Assembly (NCBI RefSeq): GCF_002532075.1
Contig: NZ_LYXE01000127.1
Coordinates: 62,001-126,000 of the forward strand
Direction: 5' to 3'
Length of the DNA stretch: 64,000 nucleotides
From: Candidatus Chloroploca asiatica
GTDB lineage: Bacteria > Chloroflexota > Chloroflexia > Chloroflexales > Chloroflexaceae
Within the stretch, counting starts at the first letter, position 1. The number at the start of each line of letters is the position of its first letter. Positions 4,565 through 39,582 of this stretch are shown piece by piece. The notes under the pieces were generated by a model. It did not search any database. It saw nothing but the letters and a program-made list of their open reading frames with translations, and was not told where the DNA came from. A program made the translations under genes and the position numbers.

Positions 4565-4656
4565 CGTATGTTCGTTGTTATCCTCTCAGCGCATACCAGA
4601 GCATGCGTCATGCTTATCTTCTGCATAGTACCATATCGTTTCACCCTGGCGCAGTG

Positions 4657-4662
4657 TATAAT
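4657..4662 (+). promoter_or_regulatory. Possible -10 box (TATAAT) upstream of ldhA
   Basis: A perfect TATAAT, preceded by TG, lies about 104 nt before the preferred ldhA start. No good -35 box is visible at 16-18 bp, so the call is tentative. The 201-nt divergent gap between murF-alr and ldhA shows nothing else clear. Confidence 0.35.
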
Positions 4663-4765
4663 GTGGGAACACCAAGCACCACCATCCCCATGTCATGCCT
4701 GTGTACGTGAGCATCCAGCGGATGGTCTGTCGGTGGACTTGGATCCCATGAAAGGTATATCGCGT

Positions 4766-5752
4766 ATGCGAGTGTTAGTCTATGATACCCATTCCTATGA
4801 TCGAACCTTTCTCGATACTGCGAATGCCGGGCGGCATGAGATTGACTATACCTCAGCCCAGCTTGATCCCCAGACGGCAGCTTTGGCCGAGGGCTATGAT
4901 GCCGTCTGTCTCTTTGTGAGTGACCGTGCCCCGGCTCCCGTGATGGAACGTCTGGCTGCCGCTGGGGTGCGGATGATTGCGCAACGCTCGACCGGGTTCA
5001 ACAATCTTGACCTGGAAGCAGCTTCCCGTCTTGGGTTGACCTGTATGCGCGTTGGCTACTATTCACCCTATGCGGTCGCTGAGTTTGCCGTTGGTCTATT
5101 GCAGACGCTCAACCGGCGCATTCACCGTGCCTACAACCGTACCCGTGAATTCAATTTCCGCCTGGCTGGCCTGCTTGGGCACGACATTTACGGGCGTACG
5201 GTCGGTGTGGTCGGAACTGGCAAAATCGGAGCCATTTTTGCCCGTATTATGCATGGCTTCGGATGTCCTATTCTGGCCTATGATGTCCAGGAAAATCCTG
5301 ATTGCCTTGCGCTTGGGGCAACGTATGTGTCCCTGGAAGAGTTGCTCAGTCGTGCTGATATTATTAGCCTCCATGTTCCGTTGATGCCTCAGACCTACCA
5401 CATGATCAATGCCCAGAGTCTAGCTTCGATGAAGCGTGGGGTGATGATTATCAATACGAGTCGGGGTGGCTTAATTGATACTGAGGCCCTGATTGCGTCG
5501 ATCGAACGTGGTCATATAGCGGCCGTCGGCCTCGATGTCTACGAAGAGGAAGAGGGCAAGTTCTTTCGTGATCTCTCGGATGTGGTCATTGACGACGATG
5601 TCCTTGCGCGCCTGATGACCTTCCCCAACGTGTTGTTGACAAGCCATCAGGCCTTCTTTACCCACGAAGCAATGACGACCATTGCCGAGACGACCATCGG
5701 CAATCTGACTGATTTTGAAGAGGGGCGCACAAACGAGAATCTGTTGCGTTAA
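4766..5752 (+). CDS. ldhA: D-lactate dehydrogenase (LdhA-type 2-hydroxyacid dehydrogenase)
   Basis: This NAD-dependent enzyme probably reduces pyruvate to D-lactate during fermentation. The 328-aa product matches E. coli LdhA length. It shows the LdhA-like segments SAQxD then LFVSDRAP, AQRSTGFNNLDLEAA and TLNRRIHRAYNRTREFNF, the Rossmann motif GVVGTGKIG, and the late catalytic histidine region SHQAFFT. I chose the ATG at 4766, with AAAGG about 10 nt upstream, because the LdhA family begins exactly there; an in-frame ATG at 4748 is possible. The open frame continues upstream to 4568 but resembles nothing in the family. Confidence 0.9.
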   Translation: MRVLVYDTHSYDRTFLDTANAGRHEIDYTSAQLDPQTAALAEGYDAVCLFVSDRAPAPVMERLAAAGVRMIAQRSTGFNNLDLEAASRLGLTCMRVGYYSPYAVAEFAVGLLQTLNRRIHRAYNRTREFNFRLAGLLGHDIYGRTVGVVGTGKIGAIFARIMHGFGCPILAYDVQENPDCLALGATYVSLEELLSRADIISLHVPLMPQTYHMINAQSLASMKRGVMIINTSRGGLIDTEALIASIERGHIAAVGLDVYEEEEGKFFRDLSDVVIDDDVLARLMTFPNVLLTSHQAFFTHEAMTTIAETTIGNLTDFEEGRTNENLLR

Positions 5753-5815
5753 GGAGCGTATCTTTTCACCCTTCCCGTGCGGTATATCAAGTAATTCTAG
5801 TCACGGGGTAAGGGT

Positions 5816-7336
5816 ATGATTGCCAAAGTCTATAGCTGTGCGGTCATCGGGCTCGAAGGGGTGCTGGTTGAAGTTGAGGTGGATATTGCCAACGGGATGC
5901 CGATGTTTGCGGTCGTTGGCCTGGGCGACGCTTCAGTGCAAGAGAGTCGCGAACGAGTGCGCGCGGCGATTCGCAATTCAGGCCTCAACTTTCCTATGAA
6001 ACGCCTGACCGTCAACCTTGCACCTGCTGATCTGCGCAAGGCTGGTCCTTCCTATGATCTGCCCATTGCGGTGGGCCTGTTGCTCGCCTCGGGGCAGGTC
6101 ACCGAGCGTTTTGACAAGACGGTCTTTATTGGTGAGTTGAGTCTTGATGGCGGCCTACGCCATACCGATGGCATTCTGCCTATGGCGGCCATTGCCCGCG
6201 CCTGTGGGATGACGACTGTCTATGTGCCCGCTGAGGATGCCGCCGAAGCTGCGCTCGTCAATGGCCTGACGATTATGCCGGTGCCCTCGCTTGGCAAATT
6301 GGCCGCTCACATCAGTGGTGAGCGGCGCTTGTCACCCTATGCGCCACGACCACCTGTCTCTTCGCTGGCAACGCATTTCCCCGTTGATTTTCAACATATC
6401 AAGGGCCAGGAACACGTCAAACGTGCCCTGGAAGTTGCAGCTGCTGGTGGACATAATGCCTTGCTCTGGGGAACTCCCGGTTCGGGCAAAACGATGCTGG
6501 CGCGGGCGATGCTCTCGATCTTGCCCCCGATGAGTCTTGAGGAGGCGCTCGAGGTGACCAAGATCTATAGTGTGTGCGGCCAGTTACCCAAAGATACCCC
6601 ATTGGTGCAGCGCCGCCCCTTCTGTGCGCCGCACCATACGACCTCGCTGGCGGGTCTGGTAGGCGGCGGTGCCGGTCGTGCGCGCCCGGGGATGGTCAGC
6701 ATGGCTCACCGAGGCCTGCTCTTCCTGGATGAACTACCCGAATTTGGCCCCAAGCTTGAGGTTTTGCGTCAGCCGCTGGAAGATCGGGTCGTCACCCTGA
6801 GCCGTTCAGCGGTGAGTGTCACCTATCCGGCGGCTTTTATGTTGATTGCGGCCATGAATCCCTGTCCATGCGGCTGGCACGGTGATCCCGAGCGTGAGTG
6901 TACCTGTAGCCCGGCGCTGGTGACGCGCTATCAAAAACGCATCTCGGGGCCACTGCTTGATCGAATTGACATTCATGTGGAAGTTCCGCGCATTAACTAC
7001 GAAAAACTCAGTTCGAATCGTCTTGGTGAACCATCAGAAGCGATTCGTGCCCGTGTCGCCGCTGCGCGGGTACGCCAGCGTTCTCGCTTGGGTCCTGATG
7101 GTCCCGGTTTTACCAATGCCGATCTTGGCCCTGGTCAGATGCGTGACGATTGTCGTCTTGATACGGCAGGACATGCCCTGATGAAAGCCGCTGTGCGTCA
7201 ACTCAACCTTTCGGCACGTGGCTATCACCGGGTACTCAAAGTGGCCCGTACGATCGCTGACCTTGCCGGGGCCGACATGATTGGCCCGGCCCATCTTGCG
7301 GAAGCCATCCAGTATCGCCCGCGACGAAGCGAGTAG
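5816..7336 (+). CDS. comM: ComM/YifB family Mg-chelatase-like AAA+ ATPase
   Basis: This 506-aa protein belongs to the ComM (YifB) family, hexameric helicases that promote branch migration when incoming DNA recombines during natural transformation. The N-terminal ~190 residues have the Lon-protease-like fold typical of the family. The AAA+ module has Walker A GTPGSGKT at 219-226 and Walker B LLFLDELPEF at 301-310. A cysteine cluster (CPCGWHGDPERECTC) matches the zinc-binding insert, and the C-terminal Mg-chelatase domain is complete. It is full length and suggests competence, although no other competence gene is in the window. Confidence 0.93.
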   Translation: MIAKVYSCAVIGLEGVLVEVEVDIANGMPMFAVVGLGDASVQESRERVRAAIRNSGLNFPMKRLTVNLAPADLRKAGPSYDLPIAVGLLLASGQVTERFDKTVFIGELSLDGGLRHTDGILPMAAIARACGMTTVYVPAEDAAEAALVNGLTIMPVPSLGKLAAHISGERRLSPYAPRPPVSSLATHFPVDFQHIKGQEHVKRALEVAAAGGHNALLWGTPGSGKTMLARAMLSILPPMSLEEALEVTKIYSVCGQLPKDTPLVQRRPFCAPHHTTSLAGLVGGGAGRARPGMVSMAHRGLLFLDELPEFGPKLEVLRQPLEDRVVTLSRSAVSVTYPAAFMLIAAMNPCPCGWHGDPERECTCSPALVTRYQKRISGPLLDRIDIHVEVPRINYEKLSSNRLGEPSEAIRARVAAARVRQRSRLGPDGPGFTNADLGPGQMRDDCRLDTAGHALMKAAVRQLNLSARGYHRVLKVARTIADLAGADMIGPAHLAEAIQYRPRRSE

Positions 7337-7925
7337 ACCTGCGGCCACCAGGAAACTCGCGTGTGCTGGCGTAAACGGCCAGCATACAAGGGCTAAATGG
7401 ACTTTCAATTTTGATGCGCTCTTTGCTGATCGTCCGGATGTTTTTGTGGCCGGGGATTTGCTCTGGTATCCGGTCGAAGGTCGGCCTGATATTCGACGTG
7501 CCCCTGATGCGCTCGTTGTCTTTGGACGGCCCAAGGGCTATCGGGGTTCATATATGCAGTGGCGCGAGGATCAGATTGCCCCGCAGGTTGTCTTTGAAGT
7601 GCTTTCGTCCAAGAATACTCTGTCTGAAATGGCGCGTAAGTTGGAATTTTATGATCTGTATGGGGTCGAAGAGTATTATCTCTATGATCCTGAACGCAAT
7701 GATCTGAGTGGTTGGTTGCGCCAGGGCGAGCGTTTGCGCCCGCTGGAAACGGTTGATGGCTGGCTTAGCCCGCGTTTGGGGGTTCGTTTTGCCCTTGATC
7801 CTCAAGAGCTTCAGATTATCCGTCCAGATGGTCGTCCGTTTCTGAGTTTTGTTGAGGTGTACCAGCGGGCAATGCTCCTGACTGAACGCTTGCGTGCGCT
7901 TGGGCTTGATCCTGATGCAGGCTAG
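7281..7925 (+). CDS. Uma2 family (DUF820) putative endonuclease with uncertain N-terminus
   Basis: From about position 7404 the translation is a clear Uma2/DUF820 restriction-endonuclease-like domain: ADRPDVFVAGDLLWYPVEG, then APDALVVFG, QVVFEVLS and KLEFYDLYGVEEYYLYDP. These include the PD...ExK-like residues of the nuclease fold. The expected first ~40 residues are not recognisable, and there is no ATG or GTG start in the gap. Only TTG codons at 7281 and 7296, inside comM, are available. A lost start or a frameshift is therefore likely. Related genes occur in many copies in Chloroflexota and cyanobacteria, and their biological role is unclear. Confidence 0.6.
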   Translation: MARPILRKPSSIARDEASRPAATRKLACAGVNGQHTRAKWTFNFDALFADRPDVFVAGDLLWYPVEGRPDIRRAPDALVVFGRPKGYRGSYMQWREDQIAPQVVFEVLSSKNTLSEMARKLEFYDLYGVEEYYLYDPERNDLSGWLRQGERLRPLETVDGWLSPRLGVRFALDPQELQIIRPDGRPFLSFVEVYQRAMLLTERLRALGLDPDAG

Positions 7926-8021
7926 CCTGTGTGCCCGAGGCTCTTTTCCGCGACACGCTTTACTGTGATCGGACGATAGCGGTACAATCAGTTGCCTGTT
8001 GTCATCGGTAGCGCATAAACG

Positions 8022-8030
8022 TGGTATGCT
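8022..8030 (+). promoter_or_regulatory. Extended -10 promoter; transcript would start at the ATG
   Basis: TGGTATGCT has the TGn plus -10 layout and ends 6 nt before the ATG at 8037, with no Shine-Dalgarno in between. The predicted transcription start falls on the start codon, so the mRNA would be leaderless. Confidence 0.4.
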
Positions 8031-8036
8031 AGACAC

Positions 8037-8633
8037 ATGTTTGATCAATCTCCGCGCGGCATGCCCATCTGGATCTGGGGGGCTTTACTCGGCCTGATGC
8101 TGATTGTGATCAGCACCGGCGGTCGTTTGATGCCCGGTGACAATGCTGCTCTTCGCCAAATCTTTGCGGCACAACCTCCTGGAACGGGGGTTGGTGCCGG
8201 TGCTGATGGGGGCGACTGGCTCCCTTCTTTTGATCTTGGCTCGCTGCCGACCGAGTTGCAGCAGGGCGCACGGGATCTATTGACGCGCCTCGGGGCAGGG
8301 TCAAGTGGGCGTCCGGTTGAGCCAATTGCGATTACGCCCCGCCTGCGCGTCGAGGTCAAGGAACTGCGGCCGGTTGCCGATGGCATTGAAGTGCTTGGCT
8401 CGATCACCAATCTGAGTTCCGACGATCTGCTTGTGCCGATCAGTGCGTTTGAATTGCACGATAGCACAGGTACAACCTATCTCGCCGGAGGCGGGGCAAG
8501 CGCCACGCTGCGCTCTGGTGAGAGTACGTCACTTGAGTTGACGGTGCCGTTGCCTGAAGGCCGTGGTTTGCTCTTGATTACCAATTTGCCCCCTGATCCG
8601 TCAGTACAACAACGATTGATCGTAGTAGAGTAA
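8037..8633 (+). CDS. Membrane-anchored protein of unknown function with a C-terminal beta-rich domain
   Basis: This 198-aa protein is not recognised. It has a short N-terminus, one transmembrane helix (about residues 11-27, IWIWGALLGLMLIVIS), a low-complexity Gly/Ala linker and a C-terminal domain from about residue 98 (LRVEVKELRPVADGIEVLGSI). The pattern of alternating strands with SITNLSSDDLLVP and SLELTVPLP resembles FxLYD or DUF4352-like extracellular domains. It probably sits outside the membrane. Its stop lies 5 nt before yggS, which suggests co-transcription. Confidence 0.7.
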   Translation: MFDQSPRGMPIWIWGALLGLMLIVISTGGRLMPGDNAALRQIFAAQPPGTGVGAGADGGDWLPSFDLGSLPTELQQGARDLLTRLGAGSSGRPVEPIAITPRLRVEVKELRPVADGIEVLGSITNLSSDDLLVPISAFELHDSTGTTYLAGGGASATLRSGESTSLELTVPLPEGRGLLLITNLPPDPSVQQRLIVVE

Positions 8634-8638
8634 CGTGT

Positions 8639-9397
8639 ATGCCAGGGTATCCTGAAACGATTGCTGACCGTGTTGCGCTTGTGCGTGACCGCATAGAGCG
8701 TGCCGCCCGCCACGCCGGACGTGATTCGGCGTCGGTGACGCTTGTGGCGGTGACCAAGACGCATCCACCTGTGTTGATTGAGGAAGTGGTTGCGGCGGGC
8801 GTGGTTGACCTTGGTGAAAATCGTGTGCAGGAGGCGGCCACGAAAGTCGAAACCTTCCGTCAAACTGGGCACGCTGTGCGCTGGCACCTGATTGGCCATT
8901 TGCAGCGGAACAAAGCTCGGGTCGCGGTTGGTCTCTTTGATATTGTCCATTCGGTTGATAGCCTGCGCCTCGCCGAGGCCCTGGATCGACAGGTGCGGGA
9001 AGCCGTTCTGTCTGCAGAGCGTGCTCCAGACTCACGTTTGCCGATCTTGTTGCAGATCAATGTGAGTGGTGAGGCCAGCAAAGAGGGTTTTGCCTTACTG
9101 GGTGGATGTGCCAACAAGTCAGGGATGGAGGCCTTGCTGGGTGCGATCGAGCGCATGGTTGCCTTGCCAGGGCTCGAAGTACGTGGCCTGATGACGATTG
9201 CCCCGCTGGTTGACGATCCAGAACTGGCGCGCCCCACCTTTCGTATGCTCCGCGAACTGCGCGACGAACTTGCTCGTCAGGTGCCCACCGTTCACTGGAA
9301 CGAACTCTCGATGGGGATGACGGATGACTTTGAGGTTGCCATCAGTGAAGGAGCCACGCTGGTGCGGGTCGGGCGGGCCCTGTTTGGCGAGCGTTAA
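8639..9397 (+). CDS. yggS: YggS/PLPBP family pyridoxal-phosphate homeostasis protein
   Basis: This 252-aa PLP-binding protein adopts the alanine racemase barrel without the second domain and buffers free PLP and amino/keto acid pools. The PLP lysine lies in VTLVAVTKTHP, and the motifs LGENRVQEA, WHLIGHLQRNK, INVSGEASKEGF, GLMTI and LSMGMTDDFEVAI are all present. It is a complete typical member. In many bacteria yggS precedes yggT; here yggT lies about 46 kb away. Confidence 0.95.
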   Translation: MPGYPETIADRVALVRDRIERAARHAGRDSASVTLVAVTKTHPPVLIEEVVAAGVVDLGENRVQEAATKVETFRQTGHAVRWHLIGHLQRNKARVAVGLFDIVHSVDSLRLAEALDRQVREAVLSAERAPDSRLPILLQINVSGEASKEGFALLGGCANKSGMEALLGAIERMVALPGLEVRGLMTIAPLVDDPELARPTFRMLRELRDELARQVPTVHWNELSMGMTDDFEVAISEGATLVRVGRALFGER

Positions 9398-28783: not shown

Positions 28784-30337
28784 TTACAGCTTAGCGGAGG
28801 TGGCAGTCGCAATATCTGGATAGAGGTTGAGGATCGTCTCAAGTTTGACCAGTTTCAAGGTGCGGAGCACATCACTCGAGCAGTTGGTAATGCGGAGTTC
28901 GCCCTCACGCCCGCGGGCGGCTCGGTCAACCTTGATCAGCGTTGACATCCCAATGCTGGCGAGAAAGACGACCTCGCTCATATCAACAATCAATTTCGGA
29001 TGGTGCTCGAGTTGTTCCATACAGAGTTCGAGCATCGTTGAAGCTGTGGACGCATCAAAGAGGCGCGGGCTGCGAATGATGTGCCATCCGCCTGCAACTG
29101 GTTGTGCCTCGCTCATCTCACCCGTTTTTAACCGACGGTCTTCGGCGGCAGCCGGGCTAGCCATGATCTCAAAGAAGTGGTGCAGATTCACCAGGGTCAG
29201 AATTTCGCGAATCGGCTGAGGTACTTCAACGAGCCAGACATCGCCACCGTCAGCACGGGCCTGATTTGCCAGGGCGACCAGCGCCCCCAGTGCACTGCTG
29301 TCGAGGAAGTCGGCTTCGGCCAGGCTAATGATCAGATAGGGGTTGCTTTGCAACAACTGGTTGGCTTGTTGCATAAAGGTTGCCTGATTACTCACATCAA
29401 GCCGTCCACGAATCCGTAGAATGGGTGTCGTCTGCGTTGCGACTGCGGCAACTGGTATCGGTGCTGTCACCACATCTTCGCCGCCGTCTGCTGTCACCAG
29501 TACCGGTTCGGTGGGTGGAGGAGGGGGAGGAGGCGTCTCGATCGTGGTGGTGACGGGAACCATGCTGATCCCACCGCCGGAACGCATCGCCCACCACTGA
29601 CGGGCAAAAAAGTAGCCGAAGTAGCCAAAATCGTGCAGGTACCGCTTGAGGAGGCGCTGTGGTTCTTGCGCCAGACGATAGACCCACTCGAGACCGGCGC
29701 GTTGCATCCAGACGGGGGCGCGACGCGTGACCCCGACGATCATATCGAGGGTGCCCCCGATCCCGATGCAGATCGGCACTTGAAGGGTTGGTGCGTGCAT
29801 CCGGATCCACTTTTCCTGTTTTGGATTGCCAAACGCAACGAGCAGAATATCGGGGCGGGCTGCTTTGATCGCATCAACAATGCTTTGATCCATGTCGAGC
29901 ACCGAGGCTGGTGGCGGTGAGAGTACGCCAGCGACCTTGAAGCCGGGGTTGCGTTGTTGCAAGATGTCAGCTGCACGGTCTGCGATGCCGGGGCCTGCAC
30001 CGAGCAGAAAGACCGAGTAGCCTTTCTCGGCGGCGCGACGGGCCAGGGCTGGTACCATGTCGGCCCCTGTTACTCGGCCTCGCAGGGAACCACCCAGCAG
30101 GCGCGAGGCCCAGACGAGCGGCATTCCATCGGCGGTTGCCATATCGGCTTCTTGCAGAATACGGCGTAATTCAGGGTCATGCAGTGAGTTGACCACAAAA
30201 TCAGCGTTGACGGTTGCGATTTGATGAGTTCTGCCACTGGTTCGTCCATGAGCAATGAATTCGTCACAGCGCACAAGAGCTTCTTCCATGGTCAGATTGT
30301 CAATGGGGACGCCCAGAACGATCAGCAATTTGCGCAT
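28784..30337 (-). CDS. WecG/TagA/CpsF glycosyltransferase fused to two STAS domains
   Basis: This 517-aa protein joins two unrelated functions. Residues 1 to about 250 are a GT26 (WecG/TagA/CpsF) glycosyltransferase: TVNADFVVNSL with the candidate catalytic Asp46, ATADGMPLVW, RVTGADMVP, VAFGNPKQEKWI and GIGGTLDMI. Such enzymes add ManNAc or similar to lipid-linked intermediates. A Pro-rich linker (269-275) leads to STAS domain 1 (about 305-395) with FLDSSALG, a SpoIIAA-like phosphorylatable Ser347/348. STAS domain 2 (about 419-515) has FLASIGMS. STAS domains bind partners in switch pathways. The fusion suggests phosphorylation- or partner-controlled glycan initiation; this is inference. Confidence 0.88.
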   Translation of the reverse strand: MRKLLIVLGVPIDNLTMEEALVRCDEFIAHGRTSGRTHQIATVNADFVVNSLHDPELRRILQEADMATADGMPLVWASRLLGGSLRGRVTGADMVPALARRAAEKGYSVFLLGAGPGIADRAADILQQRNPGFKVAGVLSPPPASVLDMDQSIVDAIKAARPDILLVAFGNPKQEKWIRMHAPTLQVPICIGIGGTLDMIVGVTRRAPVWMQRAGLEWVYRLAQEPQRLLKRYLHDFGYFGYFFARQWWAMRSGGGISMVPVTTTIETPPPPPPPTEPVLVTADGGEDVVTAPIPVAAVATQTTPILRIRGRLDVSNQATFMQQANQLLQSNPYLIISLAEADFLDSSALGALVALANQARADGGDVWLVEVPQPIREILTLVNLHHFFEIMASPAAAEDRRLKTGEMSEAQPVAGGWHIIRSPRLFDASTASTMLELCMEQLEHHPKLIVDMSEVVFLASIGMSTLIKVDRAARGREGELRITNCSSDVLRTLKLVKLETILNLYPDIATATSAKL

Positions 30338-30703: not shown

Positions 30704-31522
30704 TTACGGAAGCGTGTGATCCCAGATTAACAAGCCCGGGCCATGACTCAGCACAACGTGGGGCTGTGGTTCACCTAAACTCAGCGTGCGCTGCTGCGGA
30801 TCGGGGGGCAGGGCAATGATGTCGCCTTCGGGACTGAAGATGACCCGGACGCACGTGAAGGCAAAGGTTAGTTCGGCCTGGCTTTGCAGGGTCAACTCGA
30901 GATCACTGTCACTATTTGCCCCGACACTGCCACCAAGCTCGGTCATCGTTTCACGCAGGACGCTTATATCAACATTGAGTCGTCGCCCGCGCGCCGAACT
31001 GAGCACGATGCTGATCTGACGACTAATCAGGATTGAGTCGATTAACAACAATTCATATCCTGACTCATTGAACAGAATCGATGCGGCGGGGTTTTGGCGA
31101 TCGATGCGGCGTTCGGTCAGTGCCCACCCAAGGGCATTGGGATCGACGGCGCGCCGACGTGCTTCGGGAAAGGCGAAGGTGAGGTGGGCCGCTCCTGCAA
31201 ACCCCGCTTCAAGGTCGGCATACGGTAAACCAAAACCCCGTAGAAAGCCGCGCAAGATGTGCAACCCCAGGTCGAGATTGACTTTGCGTGATCGCCGCCC
31301 CGAAATATCGGTCAGCAACGACTCTTCAATTGGTAACCCGAGCGGGCGTGCATCTTCAAGCATTGGCAACAAGGAACCACGAAAATACGTCCGTTTGTGG
31401 TGGTGGAGTAGTACCGTCAACGGAATTACGCGGGCATCGGGGATGCGCACGATATTCGCGTTGAAGAGATCATGCACCAGCCCGGTGAGCGGATCTTCAC
31501 GACAGAGGGGAATAATAGTCAT
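30704..31522 (-). CDS. Bacterial gasdermin-like protein (putative pore former)
   Basis: This 272-aa protein has no enzyme motif. Its pattern matches what I know of bacterial gasdermins (bGSDM): similar length, a cysteine near the N-terminus (Cys7; bGSDMs are palmitoylated there), IPDARVIPLTVLL, ISGRRSRKVNLDLGLHILRG at 73-92, long amphipathic strands (ELLLIDSILISRQISIVLS) and AELTFAFTCVRVIF near 216-229, which fits the bGSDM PLVFGFQA-x-x-x-Y type segment. A ~36-residue tail (237-272) could be the inhibitory peptide removed by a protease. The caspase-like protease in the same gene series supports this. It starts 9 nt after ftsZ. The call rests on remembered family features; a structure model would settle it. 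Confidence 0.6.
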   Translation of the reverse strand: MTIIPLCREDPLTGLVHDLFNANIVRIPDARVIPLTVLLHHHKRTYFRGSLLPMLEDARPLGLPIEESLLTDISGRRSRKVNLDLGLHILRGFLRGFGLPYADLEAGFAGAAHLTFAFPEARRRAVDPNALGWALTERRIDRQNPAASILFNESGYELLLIDSILISRQISIVLSSARGRRLNVDISVLRETMTELGGSVGANSDSDLELTLQSQAELTFAFTCVRVIFSPEGDIIALPPDPQQRTLSLGEPQPHVVLSHGPGLLIWDHTLP

Positions 31523-31531
31523 TACGGCTCC

Positions 31532-32695
31532 TTACGCCTGGCGAAAGCGCTTTAAGAAGGGTGGAATATCCAGGGCATCCTGTTCGCGTATGCTGACCGG
31601 CTCGGCGGGGGCCGGGCGTGGTTTGACCTGGTTGATGCGTGAGAGCATCGCATACGGTTGCGCCAATGGTACCGACTCTTGCAGGCTGAACCCGGTGGCG
31701 ACTAGCGTAACTTTGACCGAGCCGTTACTCAGCGTGGGGTCGATGGTTGCCCCCAGGATGATGTTGGCGTCGGGATCAATGGTGCGTGCGACCATTTCGG
31801 CGACCCGTTGCACTTCGAAGAGCCCCAGGTCTTCGTTGCCTGAGACATGCAAGAGGAGGCGGCTGGCTCCTTCAAGACGGCCTTCGAGCAAGGGGCAGGC
31901 CATGGCTCGGCGGGCCGCTTCGACGGCTCGGTCGGCACCCTGCGCCGAGCCGATGCCCAGTAAGGCCGGACCGGCTTCACTCATAATGGCCCGTACGTCG
32001 GCGAAATCAACATTGATCAGGCCATGGTTGGTGACTAGGTCGGCAATGCCCTGAACGCCATGGCGCAGCACTGCGTCAGCCATGCTGAATGATTCGCGTA
32101 CCGTGGTGCTGCGTCCAGCCACTTGCAACAGGCGGTCGTTGGGTACGACGATGACTGTATCGGCAACGGCGCGCAGTGCCTCAAGGCCCTCTTCGGCGGT
32201 GCGCGCTCGCCGCCGCCCTTCAAATGAGAAGGGACGGGTCACGAGCGCCACGGTGAGTGCCCCGAGTTCGCGGGCGACTTCCGCCACAATTGGGGCCGCC
32301 CCGGTGCCGGTGCCTCCGCCCATGCCAGCCGCAATAAAGACCATATCAGCCCCCCGCAGTGCGGCGGTCAGGGCTTTGAGCGACTCTTCAGCCGCATGAC
32401 GCCCAACCTCTGGGTTGCCGCCCGCTCCCAGTCCTCGGGTGAGGTTTTCCCCGAGGCAAATGAGGCCGCCTGCTCGTCCGCCAGATAACGCCTGCCGATC
32501 CGTATTTGCCGCAAGCGTATCAATTGCCGCCATCCGATGTTTGACCAGACAGTTGATAACATTGCCACCGGCCCCCCCCACTCCGATGACCCTGATCCGT
32601 AATTCGGGCGGACTTACCGTGAGGACGTCAGTGTCGGTTTGGAAGGGCGTCTGATCGGAGGTTGGTGCTGGAAAGAAGATCAATCGCTCAGCCAT
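31532..32695 (-). CDS. ftsZ: Cell division protein FtsZ
   Basis: This 387-aa tubulin-like GTPase is complete: VIGVGGAGGNVINCL, NTDRQAL, the GTP signature GMGGGTGTGAAP, PNDRLL, the catalytic T7 loop NVDFADVRAIM and the conserved C-terminal peptide DIPPFLKRF that binds FtsA/SepF-type partners. The ATG at 32695 has AAAGGA 8 nt upstream; it overlaps the amidase end by 8 nt. No division-cluster gene (ftsA, ftsQ, sepF, mur) is nearby, so it is either a second FtsZ copy or a relocated one. It sits between the amidase and the gasdermin-like gene. Confidence 0.93.
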   Translation of the reverse strand: MAERLIFFPAPTSDQTPFQTDTDVLTVSPPELRIRVIGVGGAGGNVINCLVKHRMAAIDTLAANTDRQALSGGRAGGLICLGENLTRGLGAGGNPEVGRHAAEESLKALTAALRGADMVFIAAGMGGGTGTGAAPIVAEVARELGALTVALVTRPFSFEGRRRARTAEEGLEALRAVADTVIVVPNDRLLQVAGRSTTVRESFSMADAVLRHGVQGIADLVTNHGLINVDFADVRAIMSEAGPALLGIGSAQGADRAVEAARRAMACPLLEGRLEGASRLLLHVSGNEDLGLFEVQRVAEMVARTIDPDANIILGATIDPTLSNGSVKVTLVATGFSLQESVPLAQPYAMLSRINQVKPRPAPAEPVSIREQDALDIPPFLKRFRQA

Positions 32696-34619
32696 GGACG
32701 TATTCCTTTGCATAGCCTGCGTTGCGCAGGACACGAATCCGTTCGGAGGGGATCTGCAGGGTGGCTGAGAGGGAGCGTACTAGCCACGAAAGGGCACGGC
32801 GTTGGATCGTGTCAGCGTCGGACGGTCCTCCCTCAACGGCAATGACGATTGAGCGTTCACCAAGCGCGGTATCGGGTGCTGCAGTCGCAACGCAGGCTTC
32901 GTCGCAGAGGCGATAGATGGCTCCGGTTGCATCAATGTAGTAGTGCCAGCGCCCTGCCGCTGCTTCATGGTAGAGGTCGTTGCCAACAGGGCCTGTCGTT
33001 GCCGTGATCAAGATGGTGTCGGTTTGTGGGCGGGTGCGTTGCTGATGCTGGTGGAGCGAGGTGCCCATATCAAAGATAATCGGTTGCGCCGATGGGCTGC
33101 CGAGGAGGGCCGTCGGTTCTTCTGGTTCGTGCTGGTTCCAGCTGAGGCCCAGGTGGACACGTTGACGGAGACGGGTCAGCGGGTGTTCTGGATGCCCGCC
33201 CAGAAGGATGCCGGTTAGTCCGCCGACACGTGCCGCATTGTTGTTGAGCCCGATGACCTTTGTTTCGTTGGGTAGCGCTTTGTCGAGCGGCCAGTCGACC
33301 GAGGGCAACTGGCAGGCCAGGATATCAAGGGCAAAGGGCATCAGCAGATAGGCTTCGGTTTGTACCATGACGACTTCGGGGCGCCCGAGGGGTGCCCCGA
33401 GGCGTCGCCGTTCGGCCTGGCGGATCAAGAGGGCTTCGGCATCGTAGCGTCGCCCCGTCCGCGAACGGTAGAGGTCGTCGAGCAGGGTGCGGCGCAGGGT
33501 GCTGGTCGTGTCGGCATCGAGGCCGGCGAGGGTGCGGTTCATCTCGCTCAGACGATAGACGGTTTGCCAGTCGTCAACTGGTGAACAGAGGCTGTCGAGG
33601 CTGAAGTGCTGGCAGGTGAAGGCCTGGCGCCCGTTGATCGTCAGGCGGTGGTTGGCCCCGATGGGAACCCCCAGTCGGGCTGATTGTTTGAGATAGGTCT
33701 GGTGAAAGGCCCACGCGGGCTTGAAGCCATGTAACGGGTCGGCAGAGCGAAAGAGTAGGTCGAGCAAGGCGTCACGCAGCGGGCCCGCAGGGGTTTGTTG
33801 CAGCCGTTTGGTCTGCTGCTGGGCTGGTGGTTCATCATCTGGACCGTTGGCCTCGGCATAGATCAGGTCACGCGCATAGGCCTCGATGAGCAGGGGGGCC
33901 TGACCGGGCAGCCGCACGGCGCGATCACGGTCATCCTGGGCTGTGCCGCCGCTCTGTCCGGTTGGGCGGGTGGTAATGACGGCCACTGGCAGCCCGAGAC
34001 TCTGGTGGCGTGCGGCAGCAAAGAGCGGCCAGTCGGCCGCGATACCGGTACCGGCGGCACGGTAGGCGAGATCGAGCATCAGGTTGCGTACCTGATCCTG
34101 GGGTGGAGCGCTGCTGGCGTCACTGTTGGTATACACGCGCGCCACAAAGGTTTGCCAGGGGAAACCGGCAGGATCGGTTTTGCGCCCCGGACTGATATCG
34201 AGGTGGCGCACAAGCTGGCTGCGAGGTACGTTGTAACGTTCGACCAGCATCCGGGTGAGCGCGACGGTTGCCGCTATCTGGGCCTCGGGGTAGGGGTCAC
34301 GCCCGGTATTGAGGTTCTCCAACTCGATGCCGACCGAGACCGTGTTGAGGTTCTCGCGCATCTGCCCATCGATCATCCAGCGACTCACCCCGGCATGCCA
34401 GGCGATGTCTTCATCCTTCACCAACTGGCTGATCCGTCCGGCTTTATCAATGTAATAGTGGCACGAGATTGGTCTGCGTTCGTCACCACCTTTGCGGAGC
34501 CACCCGAGATCACCGGGTCCCCGGCCCGCTGTGGCGTGGATCACAATGGCCCGAATCCGTTCGGCGCTGCCACGTTGAAAATGTTGACGGGTCATCCCGA
34601 CCCACGTAATGTTGACCAT
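32688..34619 (-). CDS. N-acetylmuramoyl-L-alanine amidase with internal repeats and a degenerate second amidase domain
   Basis: This 643-aa protein begins with an Amidase_2/PGRP domain (about 15-160): AIVIHATAG with zinc ligand His28, SCHYYIDKAG, SVGIELEN, and RHLDISPGRKTDP with His139 and Asp149. It cleaves the MurNAc-L-Ala bond of peptidoglycan. Residues ~177-440 hold three repeats of about 85 residues (LMLDLAYR, ALLDLLFR and TLLDDLYR, each followed by LGxP). From ~530 a second PGRP-like domain (WHYYIDATGAIYRL, IVIAVEGG) lacks the zinc histidines (ILITATTG, VLRNAG) and is probably inactive. No signal peptide is seen, which is odd for a wall enzyme. Confidence 0.82.
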   Translation of the reverse strand: MVNITWVGMTRQHFQRGSAERIRAIVIHATAGRGPGDLGWLRKGGDERRPISCHYYIDKAGRISQLVKDEDIAWHAGVSRWMIDGQMRENLNTVSVGIELENLNTGRDPYPEAQIAATVALTRMLVERYNVPRSQLVRHLDISPGRKTDPAGFPWQTFVARVYTNSDASSAPPQDQVRNLMLDLAYRAAGTGIAADWPLFAAARHQSLGLPVAVITTRPTGQSGGTAQDDRDRAVRLPGQAPLLIEAYARDLIYAEANGPDDEPPAQQQTKRLQQTPAGPLRDALLDLLFRSADPLHGFKPAWAFHQTYLKQSARLGVPIGANHRLTINGRQAFTCQHFSLDSLCSPVDDWQTVYRLSEMNRTLAGLDADTTSTLRRTLLDDLYRSRTGRRYDAEALLIRQAERRRLGAPLGRPEVVMVQTEAYLLMPFALDILACQLPSVDWPLDKALPNETKVIGLNNNAARVGGLTGILLGGHPEHPLTRLRQRVHLGLSWNQHEPEEPTALLGSPSAQPIIFDMGTSLHQHQQRTRPQTDTILITATTGPVGNDLYHEAAAGRWHYYIDATGAIYRLCDEACVATAAPDTALGERSIVIAVEGGPSDADTIQRRALSWLVRSLSATLQIPSERIRVLRNAGYAKEYVHG

Positions 34620-34712: not shown

Positions 34713-36089
34713 CTACCCAACCACCCGCATCGTGACGTCTTGAATCGAAGCTCCACTATCAGCAATGACGCGCTGGTTGCTGTGGGGGCGCCCTTGAATG
34801 CTGAGTGAGCGAATGACCGCCCCCCGGCGTGCCAGCACACTCTGGCGCACATCATCAGGCTTGACCGCCCCTGCCGACAAGGTGCGCGCCGGTTCGCGCA
34901 GGTAAAAAGGGCCACCGGTGCGATTCCGTAGGTAGAGCGCCGGGACATACCACGATGCCCCGTCCGCTTCTTCGACAAAGAGGACCCGCCGCGCCTGGGC
35001 AACGCCCTCCTGTAGGCTCCTGCCGTCGGCAAGGGTGCGATAGATCGCCGCAGCCGCCCGGCTCGCTGCGGTTGAACGCACGGCCAGTTGCATGCCCAGC
35101 ACTGCCGGTATGCCTGCCGCCACGAGCGCCTGGGCGACGCCGCCGAGCAGTGGATCACCCATCCCCCCACCGACACTGGCTCCTTCGCAGGCATAGAGGG
35201 CGACCAACCCGACCTTGCCGAGTAGGGCGACAAAGGCTTCGGCAGGTACCCAGCTTGCGCCGTTGGCATTATCAAGCAAGAGTTCGCCCAGTCCGCCGCG
35301 CAACCGCCCGTGCCCGTAAAAGTGCAGAATGTCAGGTGGCTCGCCTTTCAACGCGCGTACTAGTCCTGTGCGATCGGCTGGCTCTAACTCTTCGATGATC
35401 GCCTGCCCTTTTTCTACCAGTGGCGCAAGCGCTTCGTTGCGTGCGGCTCGCTCGACATAACGTAACTCGGTACTGATCCCAGCTTCAGGCGAGACGGCGA
35501 GGATGCGCAGCGGGCCGCGTCCACGGCGCAGAGGCGGCAAGGCCTGCGGCAGATCGAGTCGGCGCGTAAGACTGCCCGCTTCGCCGCGCCCGAGGAGCAA
35601 CGGGGCTGAGCCGTCATCCCAGAGCAATTCCCAGGGGAGGGCGGCAAGGCGTACGGCGTCGGGTGGAAAGCAGAGTTCGATTGCAAGCGGCACCCCCGTC
35701 GCTGTGGCGTGATTGCGTGTACTCTCGAGCGCTTCGCGACCGGCAGGATCAGCTGTTAAGGCGGTGTAGAGCCGCCGCCCGATCCTTCGTGGGGCATCCA
35801 GCGGCACCCGCTCGTTGCTGTCCCAGAGTCCCAGGGTATCAAGGCGTGTCCGTTCTTCGGGGGTAAAGCTGAAGTGTCGTTCTTGCATCGCTGTACGCGC
35901 ATAGGGATAGGCGGGATCTTGCAATACATCAAGCGCACGCAAGACGAGGGCCAGTTCACTCGCTGGAATCGGGGGCACCATACGACTCTGGCGCACCCCA
36001 ATAATGTCGGCTTCCCAGCGTACGGTTGCCCCAGCCCCACGGAGTAGGAAGATCAAGCGCAGGTCGACTGATTCCAGTGCGTTGCTCAC
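34713..36089 (-). CDS. CHAT-domain caspase-like protease
   Basis: This 458-aa protein has a C-terminal-half CHAT (caspase HetF associated with TPR) peptidase domain. The catalytic pair is His260 in ILHFYGHGRL and Cys301 in LVALYACEGAS, and IPAVLGMQLAV and RRVLF complete the fold. The first ~140 residues are a CHAT-associated beta/helix region with no TPRs. The last ~30 residues (RSLSIQG, DSGASIQDVTMRVVG) form a short beta tail that may be an interaction tag. Its ATG overlaps the NACHT gene stop by 4 nt, so the two proteins are made together. The likely target is another protein of this gene series, such as the gasdermin-like one. Confidence 0.88.
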   Translation of the reverse strand: MSNALESVDLRLIFLLRGAGATVRWEADIIGVRQSRMVPPIPASELALVLRALDVLQDPAYPYARTAMQERHFSFTPEERTRLDTLGLWDSNERVPLDAPRRIGRRLYTALTADPAGREALESTRNHATATGVPLAIELCFPPDAVRLAALPWELLWDDGSAPLLLGRGEAGSLTRRLDLPQALPPLRRGRGPLRILAVSPEAGISTELRYVERAARNEALAPLVEKGQAIIEELEPADRTGLVRALKGEPPDILHFYGHGRLRGGLGELLLDNANGASWVPAEAFVALLGKVGLVALYACEGASVGGGMGDPLLGGVAQALVAAGIPAVLGMQLAVRSTAASRAAAAIYRTLADGRSLQEGVAQARRVLFVEEADGASWYVPALYLRNRTGGPFYLREPARTLSAGAVKPDDVRQSVLARRGAVIRSLSIQGRPHSNQRVIADSGASIQDVTMRVVG

Positions 36090-39000
36090 GACGTCACCTC
36101 TTCGGTTGTCCAGACCATACGGAAGCCCAGGAGGTTATAGCGCTGGGCGGGGTGAAACCAGTAATGCGTGCCACAACGTAGGGCGTCGCCGTCCCAGTTG
36201 AAAGCGCCCCCTTTGATCGCAGGCATTTGCTCGGGCGAGACATCGTGACAGGGCGTGCGTTCGTTGAGCCGCTCGGCCAGGCTGGCAGTCCATTCCCAGA
36301 TGTTGCCCGCCAGATCGAGGGCACCACAGCAGGCTGCTCCGGTGGGAAAGACGCCGACTGGCGATGGGGCGCGCACGCCGGTGTCGGTATAATTGGCTCG
36401 TTCTGGGGTGACCGCTTCGTCGCCCCACGGAAACGTCCGTTGGTCGGTATGGCGTGCTGCTCGTTCCCATTCCAGCGTCGTTGGCAGGCGCAAGACCTCG
36501 CCAGGGTAGAGCCAGCCAGCCGTGCGCCCGAGTGCCGTGAGCCAGGCACAGTAGGCACTGGCCTCGTACCACGAGACGCCAACCACGGGTTGGTTGGGGT
36601 TGTTGTATTGCCCATTCGTCCAGAGGGCTGGCTGGGTAATCGGGACGATCACGTCTTCGGACGAAGGCATGCGCCCGCCGTAGTCGAGAAAGGTGCGCCC
36701 CTCTGGGGTCCACCAGCGCTCGTCACGGTAGCCGCCGGCTTCGATAAACCGCTGATACTCGCTGTTGGACACCGGATAGCGGGCCAGACGAAAGCTATAG
36801 CCTAGGTAGGTCTGGTGAAGCCCACTGCTGCGCCCGTGTTTGAGCCGTTCGTCGCCCGACCAGAAGTGCCCCGCGGCGACATCACACCAGTAATCGGCAA
36901 TGCGGGCTTCGATGCCACCGGTGGCCCGGCCATCGCTCAGGTTGAGCAGGCGTGGATCGCCGAGTTGACCCAGCACGAGTCCTCCGCTGACGCGGGTCGT
37001 GAGCGGCGTCGCCGGATCCGTTGCTAGTTGCACCAGTGCGCCAGTCACGGCTTGCCAGGCCCGTCCGCCGGCACCATTCCGTCCGACATCAAGCAGACAC
37101 TCACCCGCAAGAACGACGGGATGGATGCCAGCGCGTTCGCCTGGAGGGGCTTCGAGCAGGGCGAGCAAGAGGCGTCCGGCTTCGCGCTGGGGCGCTGCGG
37201 CGACTGCGAGACGGATGACCTCACGCCAGCGTGGATCATGGGCATAGTTTTGCAGCAAGAGGGCCGGATCTTCGATTGCAACCGACTCGAGCAACCCGCG
37301 TGCGGCCAGGTACTCCTGAAAGGTCAAGTGCAAAAACGCGAACTTCCCGAAACCACGCTCTTGTAACAGCCCCGTATCGCGGCGCATCAACTCCACAAAG
37401 GCCAGGGCCATCCGTCGGGCGCGTCGCCGTGGCATCCCATCCGTCTGTTCGAGCGTCTCGGCCAGACGTTTTTCGAGATCAACCTGTTCGATCAAGCCTT
37501 CGGCATGTTCACGGTGCATCCAGAGCGCCAGTGGGCCCAACAGATTCACGACAAAGCGTTCGTCGAGCAATTCATCGCCGAGATAGACTTCGACGGGGCG
37601 TCCGCTCAGCGAGCGAGCGCGGTTCCAGGTTTCGGCCAGCGCGGCGACGCAGAGCCGGTAGAGTTCGACGCGTCGATCAGGCAGGCGCGCCCCCTGGTTG
37701 TGGATCAAGGCGAGAATCGTGAGCAGCAGCGGGTTCCGGGCGAGTTCAGTCACGTGGGGAACCGCAAAGACCGCTTCGGTGAGCGATGCGCTATAGGCCG
37801 CGACGCGCCGTTCGTGTTCAACTGCAACCGACTCACGCACGAGATCATGCAAGAGTTCGTCGACCGGAGGAACCGGGGGCATGCTGCTCGCGGCATAGGC
37901 CTGGCTCCAGCGCTGAATAAAACAACGAATCTGGGCGTCACTGAGCGGTTGGATCGTCACCACCGCAAAGAGCGCTGGATCAAGCGGCGCATCATCGTAG
38001 CCCACAATCCGTGAGGTTGCGAGGAACCGGTTCCCCGGTGCGTCCCATTCACGCACAAAGGCTTCAAGCACCCGGATCGTCGCTTGTCGGTCGGTGCGCA
38101 CCTCATCGAGGCCATCGAGCAGCACCATCGCCCGCCCGGTTGTCAGCGCGCGCTGAAAGAGCGCTCCATAATCGGGCTGCGAGAGGCCGCGGTAATAATC
38201 AGCAAGGTATGCGAGGGGCGCGAGATCTTCTTTGCCGGGGCGACGGCGCGCCGCCGCAAAGGCAGCCACCGGAAAGAAGATTGGCAACCAGATCGGATCG
38301 AGCCCCAGGCGCTCGCGGGCATCGTTGCGGGTCAGAGCCAGCATCAGATAGCGCACCAGCGTACTCTTGCCACTGCCCGGATTGCCGAGCACCACCAGGA
38401 GCGGCTGTTCACAGACAAAGGTATGTAACGATACGCCTTGGCCCTGTGGCCCAAGCGCTTCAACCGGAATATAGATCTGTTCTAGATTGAGCCGACTGAT
38501 GGTCTGGATTTGAAGCAGCCCGCGAAAATCGAGTTGATTGAAATTCTCGTTGATAAAGGCCCGATAGCGCGCATAGAGCAGCGCCAGATCGGGGCTAGCC
38601 GCTCCTGGTACCGTATAGAGGTTGCCCCGGACAATCGTCTGCTGCACGTGGTGGATCGCGGCCCCATTGGTCGCCACAATGCCCTGGGCAAACTGCTCGG
38701 CGAGGGGGGCAATTGGCGCGACGCGGGCACTGCGAAGCAGATCAATCGCTGTGCGCTCATCGGGGCTCGGCAAAAGTCGCCGCAGGCGGGCGTGATCGGC
38801 CAGGGCCTGGGGCACGAGTTGGCCCAGGAGACGGATCAGCGCGGGCCCGGCCACCCGCCACGGGGGCAACGTCACCTCGGCGTTTGCCATGCAGGGTCGT
38901 ACCTCACGCCGGTACAACTCAACGAGCCGATTCAGATCGGGCTCACCAGCGAGCAACAGTTCTTCCACCGCAGCCGCCCGAAACCGGGCGGCTACGGGCG

Positions 39001-39244
39001 CTTCGTCGGTGAGCAGCGTAAGCAGCAACGGAACCGCCGGATCGGACTCTTCCTGCCCCAGGCGTTCGGCTGCACGGGTCATAGCACGGGCAAATGGTGC
39101 GATCAGTGGCGGTTCAGCGAGGCTCGCGAGGGCCGTCAAGCGCTCGTGGAGCGTTGCGGGTGTGGCCTCGGTTGCAGCCTGGTCTTCGAGTTCCAGCGCA
39201 ACGGCCCCCAGCGTCGCGGCCAGGGCACGGGCCAGGTCACTCAT
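36086..39244 (-). CDS. NACHT NTPase with C-terminal formylglycine-enzyme-like (C-type lectin fold) domain
   Basis: This 1052-aa protein has a helical N-terminal region (1-190), a short beta segment (AAIHHVQQTIVRGNLYTVPG, 195-214), a NACHT STAND ATPase with Walker A GNPGSGKST (287-295) and Walker B LLDGLDEV (375-382), a helical middle, and a C-terminal SUMF1/FGE-sulfatase domain (about 795-1050: RYPVSNSEYQRFI, PVVGVSWYEASAYCAW, RLPTTLEWERAAR, GNIWEWT, LGFRMVW). The paired cysteines of true FGE enzymes are absent near the end, so this is probably a lectin-like binding domain. NACHT proteins act as ligand-triggered oligomerising switches. It starts on the last base of the 71-aa gene stop. Confidence 0.9.
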   Translation of the reverse strand: MSDLARALAATLGAVALELEDQAATEATPATLHERLTALASLAEPPLIAPFARAMTRAAERLGQEESDPAVPLLLTLLTDEAPVAARFRAAAVEELLLAGEPDLNRLVELYRREVRPCMANAEVTLPPWRVAGPALIRLLGQLVPQALADHARLRRLLPSPDERTAIDLLRSARVAPIAPLAEQFAQGIVATNGAAIHHVQQTIVRGNLYTVPGAASPDLALLYARYRAFINENFNQLDFRGLLQIQTISRLNLEQIYIPVEALGPQGQGVSLHTFVCEQPLLVVLGNPGSGKSTLVRYLMLALTRNDARERLGLDPIWLPIFFPVAAFAAARRRPGKEDLAPLAYLADYYRGLSQPDYGALFQRALTTGRAMVLLDGLDEVRTDRQATIRVLEAFVREWDAPGNRFLATSRIVGYDDAPLDPALFAVVTIQPLSDAQIRCFIQRWSQAYAASSMPPVPPVDELLHDLVRESVAVEHERRVAAYSASLTEAVFAVPHVTELARNPLLLTILALIHNQGARLPDRRVELYRLCVAALAETWNRARSLSGRPVEVYLGDELLDERFVVNLLGPLALWMHREHAEGLIEQVDLEKRLAETLEQTDGMPRRRARRMALAFVELMRRDTGLLQERGFGKFAFLHLTFQEYLAARGLLESVAIEDPALLLQNYAHDPRWREVIRLAVAAAPQREAGRLLLALLEAPPGERAGIHPVVLAGECLLDVGRNGAGGRAWQAVTGALVQLATDPATPLTTRVSGGLVLGQLGDPRLLNLSDGRATGGIEARIADYWCDVAAGHFWSGDERLKHGRSSGLHQTYLGYSFRLARYPVSNSEYQRFIEAGGYRDERWWTPEGRTFLDYGGRMPSSEDVIVPITQPALWTNGQYNNPNQPVVGVSWYEASAYCAWLTALGRTAGWLYPGEVLRLPTTLEWERAARHTDQRTFPWGDEAVTPERANYTDTGVRAPSPVGVFPTGAACCGALDLAGNIWEWTASLAERLNERTPCHDVSPEQMPAIKGGAFNWDGDALRCGTHYWFHPAQRYNLLGFRMVWTTEEVTS

Positions 39245-39551: not shown

Positions 39552-39582
39552 ATACTATAGCACATAGTATGATTTTTGTTAA
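39552..39582 (-). promoter_or_regulatory. Promoter of the NACHT-CHAT-gasdermin gene series with a dyad over the -10 box
   Basis: On the minus strand TTAACA (39582-39577) and TATAGT (39559-39554) are 17 bp apart. The -10 box lies in an inverted repeat, ATACTAT-5-ATAGTAT (39552-39570), which could be a repressor site. The predicted start near 39547 leaves an ~88-nt leader before the 71-aa gene. Confidence 0.6.

Follow-up and report, generated by a model that had tools for sequence, protein, structure and literature searches.

Within the window (the whole stretch of 64,000 nucleotides of Candidatus Chloroploca asiatica DNA analysed here), the initial annotation took a 272-aa open reading frame for a gasdermin-like pore former. 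This raises two questions: whether the product is a genuine bacterial gasdermin (bGSDM), and what such a protein would do in the company of its neighbouring genes.

The reading frame spans exactly 30704-31522 on the minus strand and starts with ATG, and its product has all the features first read from it (Cys7, ISGRRS, AELTFAFTCVRVIF and a short tail). Because Pfam has no match for the protein, it was searched with the PADLOC and NCBIfam models and compared with the PDB by sequence and by fold; there was also no gasdermin match in PHROGs. The PADLOC bGSDM model matches at E=3.7e-73, the NCBIfam model prok_gasdermin (NF051890.1) at 184.6 bits (E=1.9e-54), and PDB chain 7n51 matches by sequence at 2.9e-14, which is far beyond chance. 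With the NCBIfam score well above the curated cut-off of 100 bits, the initial description of this gasdermin as "diverged" is not borne out. An AlphaFold2 model, built from an alignment with 20 relatives (mean pLDDT 75), was compared with crystal structures, as the initial annotation had proposed. It matches 7n51 (Vitiosangium) with a Z of 19.2 over 236 residues, and the next best matches are also gasdermins: 7n50 (Bradyrhizobium, Z 13.7), 7n52 (Runella, Z 13.6) and others down to human GSDMD. The match to these three crystal structures extends over the whole length of the fold, although sequence identity is 10–20% and the tail sequence is different. Judged by its sequence profiles and modelled fold, the product is a true bacterial gasdermin, as originally suggested. 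Cys7 is invariant in all 20 aligned relatives and aligns with Cys4 of 7n51, so that the N-terminal cysteine is conserved there as well. The gasdermin N-domain fold is present, while the tail is poorly modelled, with pLDDT below 55 beyond residue 240. The final ~30 residues comprise a conserved PPD..RRTLG, a variable stretch and a conserved PGLL.WD end, and the variable stretch is a plausible protease cut site.

The features of the locus are as follows.

39554..39582, minus strand: putative sigma-70-like promoter, ~310 bp upstream of the first gene; a consensus match alone, not above chance
36086..39244, minus strand: NACHT ATPase with C-terminal FGE/C-type-lectin-like domain (NACHT-FGE), predicted NLR-like sensor, 1052 aa; Walker A GNPGSGKS
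34713..36089, minus strand: CHAT (caspase-like) protease, 458 aa; conserved dyad motif of His (HFYGHG) and Cys301
32688..34619, minus strand: N-acetylmuramoyl-L-alanine amidase (Amidase_2/AmpD fold, residues 1-165) with long C-terminal region; no signal peptide
31532..32734, minus strand: FtsZ2, second FtsZ homologue, 400 aa; tubulin signature GGGTGTG intact, as are T7 loop NVDFAD and C-terminal peptide DIPPFLKRF
30704..31522, minus strand: bGSDM gene, 272 aa, identified by curated HMMs, PDB sequence and fold match
within 30704..31522, minus strand: Cys7 of bGSDM, predicted acylation site
within 30704..31522, minus strand: bGSDM tail past about residue 238, predicted autoinhibitory or cleavable segment
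30610..30660, no strand assigned: perfect inverted repeat immediately 3' of the gasdermin gene, forming a hairpin with a 24-bp stem

The five genes are transcribed from the minus strand in the order NACHT-FGE, CHAT, amidase, FtsZ2, bGSDM. Neighbouring genes overlap or lie within 93 bp of each other, which suggests a single operon; the listed FtsZ2 start overlaps the end of the amidase gene, and the FtsZ2 gene lies 9 bp upstream of the gasdermin gene. The initial annotation was right about a NACHT and a CHAT gene lying upstream on this strand, both of which are recognized by curated HMMs, but left out the amidase and FtsZ genes that lie between CHAT and gasdermin. Promoter and terminator scans gave nothing above chance. 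The inverted repeat beyond the gasdermin gene may act as a terminator (RNA MFE -49.5 kcal/mol, z -9.7); its half-sequence occurs 22 times in the genome (allowing up to 2 mismatches), and the hairpin is therefore a dispersed palindromic repeat of the REP/MITE-like kind. On the same flank, an unusual fusion of a WecG/TagA glycosyltransferase with STAS domains (28784-30337) closes a polysaccharide gene cluster. It is assigned to the flank, as it adjoins the cassette in Chloroploca only.

The CHAT protein matches the PADLOC 'chat' model at 1.3e-94, and a PDB sequence search with it returned chance-level matches only. Its His/Cys motif is kept in all 19 full-length copies, and the gene is found in the gasdermin operon wherever the contig reaches far enough. 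In NACHT-FGE, the NACHT domain (Pfam, 8.6e-12) is joined to an FGE domain (2.1e-41), and from this architecture the protein is the candidate sensor of the operon. A diversity-generating retroelement (DGR) is present elsewhere in the same genome (locus L112, positions 4409-9319 of G000:C181:84000-101000). It consists of a gene for a NACHT/FGE-type protein of 1051 aa, which shares 28% identity with the NACHT-FGE of the window, followed by a reverse transcriptase; the 3' end of the protein gene (7461-7534) is repeated at 9246-9319 with 80% identity, and nearly all mismatches fall at template adenines. Hypervariability of the FGE domain by a DGR was considered for the window copy and rejected: the 47 positions that vary among the three Chloroploca proteins are spread along the whole length, dN/dS is about 0.07, and the genome's own DGR template has no match in the window. 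A different sensor arrangement is seen in a genome from another family of Chloroflexota (L039, 6739-9561), where the gene after that of the gasdermin encodes a CHAT protein of 940 aa with a fused periplasmic-binding-protein-like domain.

The N-terminal domain of the amidase has the AmpD fold (Z about 17), with the Zn ligands H28, H139 and D149, as well as K147 and E99, invariant among orthologues. The middle region, about residues 175-450, gave no separate fold match. The gene is kept wherever the contig covers its place. A hydrophobic N-terminal segment is absent from 21 of 21 orthologues, and without a signal peptide the enzyme would be held in the cytosol. A holin–endolysin-like device would need just such a cytosolic murein amidase next to a gasdermin, and intact catalytic residues without an export signal would fit such a device; mimicry of holin–endolysin pairs by gasdermin operons has been suggested before (PMC9612521).

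The explanation we favour, and consider probable, is that the locus is a bacterial inflammasome-like operon for self-lysis, whose products act in the order NACHT-FGE, CHAT, gasdermin, amidase, with FtsZ2 coupling it to cell division. We infer its functional steps as follows. NACHT-FGE, where present, would sense a trigger and activate the CHAT protease, which would remove the short C-terminal tail of the acylated gasdermin. The inner membrane would then be breached by a very wide gasdermin pore, through which the cytosolic amidase could leave to cut peptidoglycan, and the cell would lyse. The passage of the amidase is deduced from the published width of gasdermin pores, 130-330 Å (PMC9612521). 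The gasdermin would thus be holin-like and the amidase endolysin-like, while the FtsZ paralogue might link lysis to cell division, serving either as a bait that senses when FtsZ is attacked, for instance by inhibitors from phages, or as an anchor that places lysis at the septa of the filament. Against this explanation, CHAT might have other means of activation or other substrates.

The distribution of the cassette bears on whether it is a mobile defence system. With 98% identity, Candidatus Chloroploca mongolica and Chloroploca sp. Khr17 come nearest among named relatives. A strong bGSDM match is present in 24 of the 41 genomes of the same GTDB family (a 25th is marginal), including Chloroflexus (8/8), Chloroploca (3/3), the genus g4 (5/5) and Viridilinea (2/2). 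Outside the family, a single genome in a 400-genome draw of the phylum carries one. Across the family the cassette occupies one chromosomal site, adjoining a 172-aa gene and pheT, with identical order across genera. In the gasdermin and amidase trees each genus forms a clade, and Viridilinea groups with Chloroploca, in agreement with the FtsZ1 tree; this concordance is at the genus level, deeper branch order being poorly resolved. All five genes are under purifying selection (dN/dS 0.04-0.10 among the three Chloroploca). Conserved synteny, genus-level trees and purifying selection together argue for inheritance of the cassette from the ancestor of the family, and its fixed position is more like that of an inherited self-lysis locus than of a mobile defence gene. 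The same position and vertical descent do count against an inflammasome-like role, as they are less typical of mobile defence systems.

Individual components are dispensable by lineage, which also weighs against the favoured explanation. NACHT-FGE is absent from Chloroflexus, where CHAT, amidase, FtsZ2 and gasdermin are kept. FtsZ2 is absent from Viridilinea (L033, L094), and from one further locus (L093). The genome G347 keeps NACHT-FGE, CHAT, amidase and FtsZ2, but there is no gasdermin anywhere in its 99% complete assembly, so the remaining genes can be retained where the pore former is missing. In that genome an mraZ gene lies downstream of FtsZ2 (L070, 8578-9009), in the expected place of the gasdermin.

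What FtsZ2 contributes is the second half of the question. The second FtsZ copies of the family sit in the gasdermin cassette in 20 of 20 cases, a tally that takes in one genome (G429, 82% complete) in which FtsZ1 was not found. By sequence comparison, FtsZ2 diverges at the pace of its cassette partners and not of the housekeeping FtsZ: between Chloroflexus and Chloroploca, identity is 39% for FtsZ2, 47% for amidase and CHAT and 56% for gasdermin, against 84% for FtsZ1. Since the genome has a slower-evolving FtsZ1 as well, FtsZ2 is probably not the division protein. A phage origin was considered and rejected, the match to phage tubulin PhuZ in PHROGs being weak (4.7e-4). In the FtsZ tree, the FtsZ2 of G347 sits on a long branch among the FtsZ1 sequences, which makes a single origin of FtsZ2 no more than possible. 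Elsewhere in the Chloroflexales, two loci of another family (L081 and L082; genus g11, family f3) carry two tandem ftsZ genes that are unrelated to gasdermin.

Its confinement to the cassette, its shared rate of divergence and the GTP-binding signature GGGTGTG, invariant in all copies, are consistent with FtsZ2 being an integrated decoy, a reading that we offer tentatively. Phage inhibitors of FtsZ would bind to the decoy, and either the FtsZ2 altered in this way or the resulting complex would trip CHAT or NACHT-FGE, giving abortive infection that guards the divisome. The decoy idea has a direct precedent in CapRel-Ebc, described in a 2026 paper, where the complex of T7 Gp0.4 with FtsZ triggers CapRel immunity (PMC13423816). 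FtsZ takes part in the trigger there too, although it is the host's own FtsZ acting with a toxin-antitoxin fusion, without a dedicated FtsZ copy or a gasdermin. No phage inhibitor is known for the FtsZs of this family, however, and Viridilinea has lost FtsZ2 yet retains gasdermin, CHAT and NACHT. A pure decoy would also have no need of the C-terminal peptide (D)[IL]PPFL, which resembles that of FtsZ1 and is kept in 16 of 20 copies; in FtsZ, this PPFL peptide is the dock to membrane anchors of the divisome.

The docking peptide would be explained if stable FtsZ2 polymers placed the amidase and gasdermin at septa, so that selected cells lyse and the filament breaks, a developmental and not an antiviral death. 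The T7 loop bears on this. GTP hydrolysis by the FtsZ of E. coli depends on D212 of this loop, a residue replaced by the H of QLDFSH, the form that stands in place of NxDFAD in all 8 Chloroflexus copies (the window copy has NVDFAD). Poor GTP hydrolysis and stable polymers are therefore predicted for Chloroflexus FtsZ2. Inheritance at one locus throughout a family of filamentous bacteria points the same way, as does, by analogy, the co-option of an immune-type NLR system for lysis in Caulobacter (LypABC, PMC13236601). LypABC is a CARD-NLR-like system with peptidases that serves lysis of the host, much as proposed here, but it releases gene transfer agents, and no gasdermin, amidase or FtsZ gene is named among LypABC. 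Set against such a scaffold are the absence of the peptide from three g4 copies and from G347, the absence of FtsZ2 from Viridilinea, and the NACHT-FGE sensor modules, which are typical of conflict systems; we regard this role as possible but doubtful.

The Viridilinea genomes, in which FtsZ2 is dispensable, also raise the question of whether FtsZ2, or the amidase, is a passenger in a plain anti-phage gasdermin operon whose working parts are CHAT and gasdermin. The gasdermins fetched from outside the family adjoin proteases (CHAT in L039, trypsin-EAD1 in L108, caspase in L109) without amidase or FtsZ. Such a passenger role seems unlikely, given the retention of the amidase and its invariant catalytic residues, the purifying selection on FtsZ2 in Chloroploca (dN/dS 0.045-0.077) and its close spacing to the gasdermin gene. 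The boldest form of the self-lysis proposal, a vertically inherited, family-wide bacterial inflammasome that uses its own FtsZ copy as pathogen sensor and releases caspase–gasdermin–amidase lysis upon attack on a division protein, we consider rather improbable.

Among known systems, the bGSDM operons of Lysobacter enzymogenes and Sphingobium use trypsin-like proteases; like the present cassette, they combine bGSDM with protease and NLR-like genes. One of them is drawn without the lysozyme and phospholipase genes present in the other, and the figure legend mentions FtsZ for neither, unlike the Chloroploca cassette (PMC9612521). The Lysobacter operon protects E. coli from phage (PMC9612521). The closest counterpart is in Oscillochloris trichoides, of the same bacterial family as Chloroploca, whose bGSDM operon is among those drawn in Figure 2 of Johnson and Kranzusch (2022; PMC9612521). 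The legend of that figure lists NACHT, NLR, C-type lectins annotated as FGE, caspase/CHAT, amidase and tubulin (FtsZ). Going by this legend, the Oscillochloris operon would resemble the Chloroploca cassette in its NLR with NACHT and C-type lectin (FGE-like), caspase/CHAT, amidase, FtsZ and bGSDM. As far as the legend goes, then, an operon of this composition has been known since 2022, and the "new genomic setting" of the initial annotation is not new. What the figure gives is a drawing from one species; added here are the Chloroploca copy and the analysis of family synteny, inheritance, losses, selection, signal peptides and FtsZ2. New are thus the deep inheritance, the variants in which single components have been lost naturally, and a more precise hypothesis for the FtsZ gene that can be put to the test. 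Our literature search found no paper with experiments on this system or on any Chloroflexota gasdermin.

The activation of bacterial gasdermins has been posed as an open question (PMC9612521), and it becomes testable with an operon in which NACHT-FGE is a candidate sensor and FtsZ2 a candidate bait. The lineages lacking the sensor (Chloroflexus), FtsZ2 (Viridilinea) or the gasdermin (G347) are ready-made comparisons. For the family itself, the retention of a gasdermin at one locus for as long as the family has existed suggests that these filamentous phototrophs undergo programmed lysis as part of their own biology, rather than as a mobile defence alone.
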